Positions 1 through 49,967 of a stretch of DNA of 64,000 nucleotides are shown here, in pieces. Position 1 is the first letter of the stretch. Each line of letters starts with the position of its first letter. The position numbers were made by a program, and so were the translations under genes. The stretch covers positions 1,302,001-1,366,000 of the forward strand of contig NZ_JAJISP010000001.1 of assembly GCF_022132145.1 (NCBI RefSeq), written 5' to 3'. A model generated the notes under the pieces. It saw only the letters and a program-made list of their open reading frames with translations. It was not told the DNA's origin and did not search any database. The DNA is from Pseudomonas sp. MMS21 TM103 (GTDB lineage Bacteria; Pseudomonadota; Gammaproteobacteria; Pseudomonadales; Pseudomonadaceae).

Positions 1-1427
1 ACGGACTGAGCATCATCGAGAACAACGCCGACACCATCCTCGAAGAGATCGGTATCGATTTTCGCGACGACCCGGAAGCGCTGCAGATCTGGCGCGACGC
101 CGGCGCCGACGTCCAGGGCGAGCGGGTGCGCATGCCGCGCGGCATGTGCCGCAAGCTGATTCAGGACAACGCCCCGCGCGAGTTCACCCAGCATGCCCGC
201 AACCCCGCCCGCAGCGTGCGCATCGGCGGCGCCAACACCGTGTTCGTGCCCGCCTACGGTTGCCCCTTCGTCCATGACATAGATCGCGGACGGCGCTACG
301 GGACCATCGAGGACTTCCGCAACTTCGTCAAACTGGCCTACCTGTCGCCGAGCATCCATCACTCCGGCGGCACCATCTGCGAACCGGTGGACCTGCCGGT
401 GAACAAGCGCCATCTGGACATGATCTACAGCCACATGAAGTACTCCGACAAGTGCTTCATGGGCTCGGTGACCCACCCGGAGCGGGCCCAGGACACCATC
501 GAGATGGCCAAGATCCTGTTCGGCGACAACTGGACCGATCCCGACACCGGCAAGCCGAGAACCTGCGTGATCAACCTGATCAACGCCAACTCGCCGATGA
601 CCTTCGATGACACCATGCTCGGTGCCGCCAAGGTCTATGCCCGCGCCAACCAGGCCTGCATCATCACCCCGTTCATCCTCGCCGGGGCCATGTCGCCGGT
701 CACCGTGGCCGGGACCGCCGCCCAGAGCCTGGCCGAGGCCCTGGCCGGCATGGCCTTCGTGCAGCTGGTCAACCCGGGCGCCCCGGTGGTACTCGGCAGC
801 TTCGCCAGCTCCATGTCGATGCAGTCCGGTGCCCCCACCTTCGGCACCCCCGAGCCGGCGCTGGTGCTCTACGTGATGGCCAACCTGGCCCGGCGCCTGG
901 GCGTGCCGTTCCGTTCCGGCGGCTCCTTCACCGCCTCGAAGATCCCCGATGCCCAGGCGGCCAGCGAGAGCGCCAACACCCTGCTGCCGACCACCCTGGG
1001 CGGGGTCAACTTCGCCCTGCACACCGCCGGCTGGCTCGAGGGTGGCCTGGCCATGGGTTACGAGAAGTTCATCATGGATGCCGACCAGGCCGGCATGATG
1101 CAGACCCTGCTCAAGGGCATCGACCTGTCCGAAAACGGCCAGGCCATGGATGCGATTCGCGAAGTCGGCCCCGGCAAGCACTTCCTCGGCTGCAACCACA
1201 CCCAGCTGAACTTCAAGACGGCCTTCTACCTGTCGCCGATCTGCGACAACAACAGCTTCGAGCAATGGGATGCCGACGGTCGTCTGGACATGGCTCAGCG
1301 CGCCAACGCCCGCTGGAAGAAGCTACTGGCCGACTACCAGCCGCCGGAGCTGGACCCGGCCATCGACGCGGCGCTGCTGGCCTATATCGAGCAACGCAAG
1401 GCGAGCATGCCCGACTCGAACGTGTAG
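1..1427 (+). CDS. MttB-family corrinoid methyltransferase, 5' end missing
   Basis: About 474 residues are visible in a frame that is already open at base 3, so the N-terminus lies before the window; family members are roughly 500 residues. The protein resembles the trimethylamine:corrinoid methyltransferase superfamily, which forms a TIM barrel and moves a methyl group from a quaternary or tertiary amine to a cobalamin protein. Recognisable stretches include SPMTFDDTMLGAAKVYA and GCNHTQLNF near the C-terminus. No in-frame amber codon is seen, so this is a non-pyrrolysine member, a group that includes glycine betaine demethylases; the substrate cannot be read from sequence. No corrinoid protein gene is visible, though one may lie upstream. 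It converges on a hydantoinase/oxoprolinase-like gene. Confidence 0.85.
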   Translation, partial: GLSIIENNADTILEEIGIDFRDDPEALQIWRDAGADVQGERVRMPRGMCRKLIQDNAPREFTQHARNPARSVRIGGANTVFVPAYGCPFVHDIDRGRRYGTIEDFRNFVKLAYLSPSIHHSGGTICEPVDLPVNKRHLDMIYSHMKYSDKCFMGSVTHPERAQDTIEMAKILFGDNWTDPDTGKPRTCVINLINANSPMTFDDTMLGAAKVYARANQACIITPFILAGAMSPVTVAGTAAQSLAEALAGMAFVQLVNPGAPVVLGSFASSMSMQSGAPTFGTPEPALVLYVMANLARRLGVPFRSGGSFTASKIPDAQAASESANTLLPTTLGGVNFALHTAGWLEGGLAMGYEKFIMDADQAGMMQTLLKGIDLSENGQAMDAIREVGPGKHFLGCNHTQLNFKTAFYLSPICDNNSFEQWDADGRLDMAQRANARWKKLLADYQPPELDPAIDAALLAYIEQRKASMPDSNV

Positions 1428-44890: not shown

Positions 44891-47311
<2,421 letters not shown>

Positions 47312-47816: not shown

Positions 47817-48169
47817 AGAAAGCACTGAGGGGAGCCATTGGCTCCCCTCTAATAACTAATGCGTGCTTTGTTTTTCTTGTTTAGCGATCTGTTGTTGTTA
47901 TTAGTGATCGACAGCTTTTTCATCAGATCCCCAAGAGGGATCAAGGGCAAACGTATTTCTTTGGTTGCTGGTAATGCCCTTGTCACCAGGTGATCCAACC
48001 AGAACGAGCTACCTCAGGGTAGTTTTATTCTTCTAAGACTGGTTGCCGGAATGAACCCGGAAAAGCCTACCCTCTCCAAAAAAATCGGTTTGCTGCTTCT
48101 CTGCGGTTTTGTTTTTGTTTTACCAGAGTCGAGATGTTTTTTCTTTTTGCTGTTTTTGTTGTTGTTCTT
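47817..48169 (-). ncRNA. CrcZ/CrcY/CrcX-family small RNA (Hfq/Crc antagonist), predicted
   Basis: A transcript of about 350 bases is predicted from the minus strand, starting near 48169, 12 bases after a sigma54 promoter. It holds at least four A-rich CA-motif clusters of the type bound by Hfq-Crc: AACAACAACAAAAACA near 48165, AAAACAAAAACAAAACC near 48120, AATAACAACAACAG at 47890-47904 and AAACAAGAAAAACAAAG at 47867-47883, with a weaker one near 47960. It ends in a 10-bp GC hairpin (47827-47836 and 47840-47849) followed by AGTGCTTTCT. CrcZ-type RNAs titrate Hfq away from catabolic mRNAs and relieve carbon catabolite repression. Length, promoter class, motifs and terminator all fit; which paralogue it is cannot be told here. 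Confidence 0.8.
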
Positions 48170-48317: not shown

Positions 48318-48830
48318 ACGGGGCGCTTGGTGGGCGGTGTCACTCAGGGCGCTTGGTGAGAAAAAGGGTGGGCCATAGCGCTGGCGTAGCCGCGCGATCA
48401 GGCCGCCTGTGGGAGCCTGCCGCTGATCAGGTAATCCAACCGATTGAGCAGGAGAACCCCGCCGCTGGAATCGATGATCCGCCCTGCCCTTCAAGTAATC
48501 ACTCGGACAGTGCGTGCCCTGGCCGGAGACAGGATAAAAGGTGTCGCCTACAGCAATGCGAAGGGTTGCAGCTAACGACAGGATAACGACCACACCAGAG
48601 CGTGCACGCCGCCAGCCCTGGAACTCAAGATGTTGGCCCGGATCAACTTGGCACAGCTGCCGACCGTAGTTGAACCCTGGCTATCAGGTACCAGGACCTC
48701 AGCGCGGCAAGCAAGGACCAATCCGCACGCAATCCATCCAGCCATTTCAACAACAAGTACAACGCTAAGGCTGACCTGAAGGTTGATCCTGACCCACAGC
48801 TACAGGCTAGGCGTTCGGTATGGGATCGTT
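48318..48830. other. Gene-free region upstream of the BCCT-like gene
   Basis: No coding region is supported. A direct repeat GGGCGCTTGGTG occurs at 48321-48332 and 48347-48358, just beyond the enhancer dyad. Further on the sequence is mixed, with short fragments resembling Pseudomonas REP sequence (around 48408) and no clear promoter. Confidence 0.4.
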
Positions 48831-49967
48831 ATGAATATTGTATTGTCCGGCGCGATCATCACGCTGTTGCTCGCCACCCTGTTTGTCCTGATGCGCTGGG
48901 GTAATCAGCGCTGTCATGGCGCCGAGCCAGTGGGGTTGTTGACCTTCATGGCCATCCTGTTCACGTCGGGCCTGGACATGGGCCTGATCATATTTCCGTT
49001 GACCGAGTTCCCGGTCTACGCCAAGGATGGGCCATATCAATTCTCCAACCCGTTGGCTGTCGAGTTCGGCTTCTGGGGCTTTCTGATTTGGGTGTTTTAC
49101 TTCATCACCACCTTTTACTTCTGTGTGATCGAGCCACGGGTGAAGTTCTTCGAGCTGAAACCGGTGAAGATCATCAACAATCTGGTGATCATCTCGACCT
49201 GCGCCTTCACCGCTTACCTGTTTCTGGTGAATATCGCCTGGTATGCCCCGGAAGTTGGCGAGGCCTGGGGTTACCTGGTGGTCTTCCTGATACTGTTGGC
49301 GGCGGTCTATTCGAGTACGGATCTCCGGTACCTGAAGATCCTGAGCGTGGCGTCGACCTGGTTGTTCTTCGCCCTGATTGCCGGAATGTGGTGGTTGATG
49401 GATGCCGATGCAGGCTACGTGGCCGAGGCGGCTGCGGCGATCGGCAGCGGCTATTTCGCCAAGCTGCATGAGTTCGTCCTGCCGCTGAGCGACTACCACG
49501 CCTTCTATTTGTTCTGGTGGTTTGCCTGGAGCGTGATGATCGGCCAGTTCGTATCGCGCTTTGTCGGTGGCCTGAAGACCTATCAACTGCTGCTGGCCCT
49601 GCTGATCATTCCGTCCATACCCTTGGCGATATGGTTTTCCGTGCTGTACTACTACTTCGCCAACGCCATCGAGATCACCTTGCTGTTGAAGCTGGCGATG
49701 GTCACGGTGGGGATTATCTTCGTGATCAATTCGGTCGATTCGCTGGTGCGCTTGTACACCGACAATCTCGGGATCAAGGTCGAGAAACTGGGGCGGCCGA
49801 AGTTCATTTTGCTGAACGTGAGCCTGCTGACTGCCCTGGTCCTGCTGTTCAAATTTACCCCGTTCGAAATTCAGACGGTGGGGCTGGTGGTGATTGCCCT
49901 GTATGCCGCGACCATCGCGACCCTGATGTGGCGCCACCGGCCGGCGCTGGCCTCGATCAATGGCTGA
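48831..49967 (+). CDS. Divergent BCCT-like membrane transporter
   Basis: A 378-residue protein with about ten hydrophobic helices. The stretch FWWFAWSVMIGQFVSRFVGGLKTY resembles the BCCT (betaine/choline/carnitine) helix with WSPFVGxFIARISRGRT, and EFGFWGFLIWVFYFITTFYF resembles an early BCCT helix, but the protein is shorter than the usual 500 residues and lacks the tryptophan-box in classical form. Substrate and direction are unknown. The ATG at 48831 is preferred to an upstream TTG. It stands alone, convergent with the lipid gene trio. Confidence 0.6.
   Translation: MNIVLSGAIITLLLATLFVLMRWGNQRCHGAEPVGLLTFMAILFTSGLDMGLIIFPLTEFPVYAKDGPYQFSNPLAVEFGFWGFLIWVFYFITTFYFCVIEPRVKFFELKPVKIINNLVIISTCAFTAYLFLVNIAWYAPEVGEAWGYLVVFLILLAAVYSSTDLRYLKILSVASTWLFFALIAGMWWLMDADAGYVAEAAAAIGSGYFAKLHEFVLPLSDYHAFYLFWWFAWSVMIGQFVSRFVGGLKTYQLLLALLIIPSIPLAIWFSVLYYYFANAIEITLLLKLAMVTVGIIFVINSVDSLVRLYTDNLGIKVEKLGRPKFILLNVSLLTALVLLFKFTPFEIQTVGLVVIALYAATIATLMWRHRPALASING

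Follow-up and report, generated by a model that had tools for sequence, protein, structure and literature searches.

The locus beside gyrB

Between gyrB and a gene for a BCCT-like membrane protein, the window (the whole 64,000-nt stretch of DNA analysed here) carries a predicted gene for a small RNA of the CrcZ family, whose features are collected in Table 1. The Rfam CrcZ model, RF01675, matches the minus strand at 48168-47795 over its entire length (model positions 1-398 of 398), with 255 bits and an E-value of 6.4e-70. The initial annotation had read a CrcZ-type RNA on this strand and had named the covariance model as the way to check it; with a curated cutoff of 95 bits, the match is well over what the family demands. 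The predicted transcript, of about 350 nt (352 nt were scanned), starts near 48168 and ends near 47817, and it is more stably folded than 100 of 100 shuffles (z -3.9). Its GC-rich terminator hairpin agrees in coordinates with the one annotated earlier at 47827-47849 and is enclosed by an outer stem, AAAGCAC/GTGCTTT (47869-47863 with 47825-47819); the T-run 3' of the hairpin is short, which counts against the decoy reading given below. The A-rich CA motifs, of which four to five had been noticed, form five blocks with 13 overlapping AANAANAA matches in 352 nt, far beyond dinucleotide shuffles, which hold a mean of 1.6 +/- 1.5 and reached 13 in 0 of 2000.

Directly upstream, as the initial annotation also had it, stands the sigma54 promoter TGGCACGAGCCGTGCT at 48195-48180, and in 40 of the 40 loci scanned the best sigma54 match is likewise GG-N10-GC, with one to two mismatches to the fuller consensus. 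CbrB-type subsites and an IHF-type site lie further upstream, beyond what had been recorded before. The IHF-type site matches the IHF consensus WATCAANNNNTTR without mismatch. The three putative CbrB subsites, F1, R1 and R2, are spaced 21 and 21 bases apart and hold two mismatches in total, and a triple this good appeared in 0 of 2000 shuffles. At crcZ and crcY of P. putida, both activated by CbrB with sigma54 (RpoN) and IHF, the available text of PMC6296734 describes one forward and two reverse CbrB subsites with 20-25 bp between centres, and places IHF between the CbrB and sigma54 sites.

A covariance search of the window's own assembly returned three RF01675 copies over the cutoff; run on 14 control genomes, the search gave no member of the family. 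We take the copy on contig C8 as crcZ proper because it lies between a CbrA/CbrB-type pair and pcnB; the pair, a histidine kinase and an NtrC-like sigma54 activator preceding the copy, is named by type and place. The earlier observation that the RNA beside gyrB is not next to cbrB thus stands, the cbrB place being held by the C8 copy. In other genomes, relatives of the third copy have gbcA or genes for a BCCT transporter, a CoA-transferase or a butyrobetaine dioxygenase in their vicinity, for which reason we refer to its place as the betaine/carnitine locus. Both hfq and rpoN are present in the genome. A 259-aa xth-family member beside a pyrE-like gene is taken as the crc candidate, since crc adjoins pyrE in A. 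vinelandii in the available text of PMC6292655.

Table 1. Features of the gyrB locus and the three RF01675 copies of the assembly (positions refer to the window unless a contig is named).
Feature	Position	Strand	Basis or remark
gyrB	44894..47311	+	NCBIfam gyrB, 1000 bits; converges on the RNA gene, 505 bp from the RNA's predicted end
CrcZ-family sRNA gene (predicted)	47817..48168	-	RF01675 match, fold z, alignment with 19 relatives
Terminator hairpin GAGGGGAGCC-AAT-GGCTCCCCTC	47849-47827	-	sequence and fold
A-rich block 5 (AACAAGAAAAACAA)	47881-47868	-	motif scan
A-rich block 4 (AATAACAACAA)	47902-47892	-	motif scan
A-rich block 3 (AAGAATAA)	48032-48025	-	motif scan
A-rich block 2 (AACAAAAACAA)	48119-48109	-	motif scan
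A-rich block 1 (AACAACAACAAAAACA...AAAAAGAAAAAA)	48166-48138	-	motif scan
sigma54 (-24/-12) promoter TGGCACGAGCCGTGCT	48195-48180	-	GG-N10-GC; 12 bases before the proposed start
IHF-type site	48227-48215		exact match to WATCAANNNNTTR; between CbrB subsites and sigma54 element
Putative CbrB subsite R2, GAAACA	48276-48271	-	1 mismatch; subsite model from the available text of PMC6296734
Putative CbrB subsite R1, GTAACG	48297-48292	-	1 mismatch; same model
Putative CbrB subsite F1, TGTTAC	48318-48313	-	exact; same model
BCCT-like membrane protein gene	48783..49967	+	weak BCCT match below curated cutoffs; diverges from the RNA promoter
RF01675 copy 1	C8:51271-51669		345 bits; between CbrA/CbrB-type pair and pcnB
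RF01675 copy 2	the gyrB-side copy of the window		255 bits
RF01675 copy 3	C1:1535583-1535949		225 bits; adjoins gamma-butyrobetaine dioxygenase gene

Two further observations concern the protein-coding genes of the window. Among 25 loci, the BCCT-like protein (394 aa) has 14 relatives from outside Pseudomonas, which are 53-60 percent identical to it, and its gene lies close to the RNA gene at 8 of the 11 gyrB-class loci of the genus. At the other end of the window, a gene of the trimethylamine methyltransferase (MTTB) family (126-1427, plus strand, 684 bits) contains a match to the pyrrolysine insertion element PYLIS_3 at 927-1026, above cutoff at 42.2 bits. As the MTTB frame is open, without a stop, this match probably reflects shared ancestry of the coding sequence.

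Occurrence in the genus and beyond

Every one of 99 genus genomes searched has at least one RF01675 copy, the number ranging from 1 to 4, where the count of 4 (G082) includes two below-cutoff pieces at a contig end. Linkage to gyrB was surveyed by a DNA search of 398 genus genomes, RF01675 searches of chosen genomes and inspection of flanks. At least 10 of the 398 have a gyrB-linked copy: the window's genome and G224, G381, G180, G187, G069, G288, G060, G260 and G042, among them Pseudomonas sp. CC6-YY-74, P. tumuqii, P. taeanensis, Pseudomonas sp. SJZ079 and two MAGs. The count of ten is a minimum, since in nearly all genomes the DNA search rated no more than the two top candidates. In P. borbori (G082) a copy near a contig end has the same far-side genes and is counted with the gyrB class as putatively gyrB-linked. 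Forty further genomes were picked mainly by gyrB similarity, and none of the 38 with useful length (one of 6.7 kb) has a copy within about 8 kb downstream of gyrB; nor was a copy found at four other Pseudomonas loci reached through a neighbour protein (L009, L011-L013).

At two of the gyrB loci, those of P. taeanensis and SJZ079, an rsmX gene (RF02144) lies divergently beside the RNA gene, so that two decoy-type RNAs stand back to back (L007:5311-5422 with L007:4551-4923, and L008:5339-5451 with L008:4689-5058, respectively). SJZ079 has a second rsmX at L008:378-486. A search of the 64,000-nt window for an rsmX remnant found none.

When 198 genomes from the wider taxonomic family were searched at the DNA level, matches near the chromosome start appeared in genus g12, and 20 stretches were then fetched. 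The RNA and gyrB occur together in eight of these, seven from g12 and one from g9; two more (L204 and L206) retain only the acyltransferase-gmhB-glyS side, and the rest comprise three cbrB-linked, two mvaB-linked and five without assigned context. The window and the other genera have far neighbours in common, namely the acylglycerol-phosphate acyltransferase gene and gmhB. Within this same interval the orientation of the RNA differs between genera: all 10 cases from the window's genus have it antiparallel to gyrB, and all 8 cases from the two other genera (L198-L202, L207, L208 and L213) have it parallel.

Placement within the CrcZ family

The gyrB-side gene resembles CrcZ (RF01675) in its full-length model match, sigma54 promoter, CbrB-type subsites, A-rich blocks and terminator hairpin. 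It is not CrcZ in the narrow sense of an RNA directly downstream of cbrB, as it adjoins gyrB instead; and whereas P. aeruginosa CrcZ has 407 nt and six blocks in the available text of PMC4063720, the gyrB-locus RNA has about 350 nt and five. With CrcY of P. putida (PP3540b) it shares the status of a second, unlinked copy and the promoter type, but it has neither the locus nor the branch of that RNA, both of which are mvaB-linked (we take PP3540 to be mvaB, and by CrcY rows we mean copies adjoining a gene for an HMG-CoA lyase of the mvaB type). Comparable is CrcY of Azotobacter vinelandii, a CbrA-controlled decoy RNA that has five A-rich motifs and a predicted RpoN promoter; in the available text of PMC5429807 it lies between two hypothetical genes, Avin04790 and Avin04820, rather than at gyrB, and it is set apart here by that described locus alone. 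A further named member, CrcX of P. syringae DC3000, stands beside CrcZ in the family. Searched titles and abstract openings name no CrcZ-family gene at gyrB, the subscription literature lying mostly outside this search.

Two side observations bear on other members of the family. In G086, two CrcZ-type copies lie in tandem beside an mvaB-type gene (L121:1919-1518 and 2591-2193). A third-copy class of RF01675 occurs in other genus genomes (L137, L138, L140-L146 and L149), with actP (L143, L149), mlaA-type (L143, L144) and choline/glycine-betaine binding protein (L144) genes as neighbours where annotated; this class is possibly the CrcX locus.

Trees were built from hand-picked rows, 76 and then 94 RNAs out of a larger number of loci, are unrooted, and in the second omit two long-branched rows of one genome (L177 and L166); L214 and L216, labelled there as other genera, come from genomes of the window's genus. 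In the 76-row tree, the gyrB and betaine classes together with L179 of G042, which later flank inspection found to be gyrB-linked, form a branch of 18 with support 100/99. The 94-row tree recovers a branch of 30 holding both classes with support 99/97, made up of 11 gyrB-class genus rows (with G082), 10 other-genus rows (with L204 and L206), 7 betaine-locus rows, and L203 and L205 of g12, whose fetched stretches include no gyrB. The crcZ rows, the mvaB-linked rows and the third copies of other genomes all fall outside it; of the named types, the comparison covers crcZ and mvaB-linked crcY. The split between gyrB and betaine classes is weaker (94/75), and three g17 rows without assigned context, which may be a known CrcY of another genus, adjoin the branch at 93/72. 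The initial guess of a further paralogue fits with this position and with the presence of crcZ and a third copy in the same genome. What is new, then, is the gyrB place and a branch apart from crcZ and mvaB-linked crcY; the gene is a separately placed new member of a known sRNA family, and neither the kind of RNA nor its proposed mechanism is new.

One could argue that the gyrB copy is no more than this species group's CrcY, relocated to gyrB. Two copies, crcZ and the gyrB copy, are indeed what most carriers have, as P. putida has crcZ and crcY: among the other nine carriers of the genus in which gyrB shares a contig with the RNA, eight contain RF01675 at full length twice and G381 contains it three times. 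The layout of promoter and RNA is similar to that of CrcY as well. Among the ten same-genus carriers, no genome has both mvaB-linked and gyrB-linked copies, the other copies being cbrB- or betaine-linked. The tree, however, groups the gyrB copy with betaine-locus copies (99/97) and away from the mvaB-linked ones, in an unrooted topology whose deep branches are only fairly supported, and on this ground we consider a relocated CrcY unlikely, at about the level of an outside contender. A bolder reading, which we put at a little under even odds, treats the gyrB and betaine/carnitine copies as an ancient lineage of decoy RNAs in its own right. It would make a fourth type next to CrcZ, CrcY and CrcX that has stayed by the replication-start genes in three genera, with one inversion there, and genomes like the window's would run three decoys with partly different control. 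One-clade tests gave p 0.307 and 0.179 and leave the named groupings neither rejected nor proved, since L203 and L205 fall inside them. With unrooted trees, the gyrB place may be old and have gone through an inversion and many losses; alternatively, members of the lineage may have arrived at gyrB more than once.

Conservation and proposed role

We aligned 20 RNAs of the gyrB/betaine branch, the window's RNA and 19 relatives. The conserved motif spacing that the initial annotation had asked for in relatives is borne out by this alignment, and all five A-rich blocks fall in unpaired columns of the consensus fold. Of the A positions within the window's AANAANAA motifs, 32 of 50 do not vary across the 20 sequences, versus 20 of 77 elsewhere (Fisher p 2e-5, for columns that are not independent). 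As raw counts, at least one two-sided change is seen in 11 of 50 consensus pairs, many of the remaining pairs being invariant and so uninformative; two of the 11, in the terminator hairpin, show GC-to-AU double changes among relatives.

The promoter elements were followed through the same loci. In the gyrB-class loci of the genus, F1, R1 and R2 with at most two mismatches in total occur in 11 of 11, the sigma54 element in 11 of 11, and the IHF consensus, placed as in the window, in 10 of 11. The three-subsite pattern, allowing up to three mismatches, is found in 3 of 9 gyrB-class loci of g12 and at the usual distance only in L202, which weakens a claim of common CbrB control in that genus. It is also absent from 2 of 7 betaine-locus rows and from 1 of 2 third-copy rows; since the search missed 1 of 2 mvaB-linked rows as well, such a miss is weak evidence.

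A duplicate decaying without function might be suspected from a family score below that of the same genome's crcZ (255 versus 345 bits), from its being one of three copies, and from its patchy presence across genomes, but the branch as a whole retains the promoter elements, the A-rich blocks and the terminator pairs, and its best-conserved positions are the A-rich ones, making decay very improbable. A small protein gene in place of the RNA, suggested by an ORF (48220-48014, 68 aa) overlapping the 5' part of the RNA gene, is rejected as barely credible because the ORF begins before the point where transcription is predicted to start, and single-base indels cross it in the alignment of relatives.

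Since the sequence features needed for it are present, the locus is best read as encoding a decoy RNA that poor carbon would induce. With a probability of roughly 0.85, judged from sequence, we regard the gyrB-side gene as a predicted CrcZ-family sRNA gene at its own chromosomal place, likely encoding a decoy that is switched by CbrB and sigma54 and would titrate Hfq/Crc. CrcZ itself, through its A-rich stretches, binds and sequesters Hfq at the distal face of the protein and so relieves repression, according to the available text of PMC4063720. At the gyrB locus, CbrB aided by IHF would activate sigma54-RNA polymerase at the promoter, and the RNA of about 350 nt would accumulate when preferred carbon runs short. 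Its unpaired A-rich blocks would then capture Hfq at its distal face, together with Crc, and thereby release catabolic mRNAs at their A-rich ribosome-binding sites. Alongside crcZ and the third copy, the gyrB copy would add to the overall dose of decoy, in a reading that gives the gyrB position no special role of its own.

In pseudomonads, catabolite repression hinges on the amount of Crc-type decoy RNA in the cell, supplied by a family described under three names. The gyrB/betaine branch offers a comparison showing which parts of the RNA selection keeps, namely the A-rich positions. If the branch is truly distinct, species groups would not share the same decoy dose and control, and in this group a crcZ deletion by itself would not remove all decoys.
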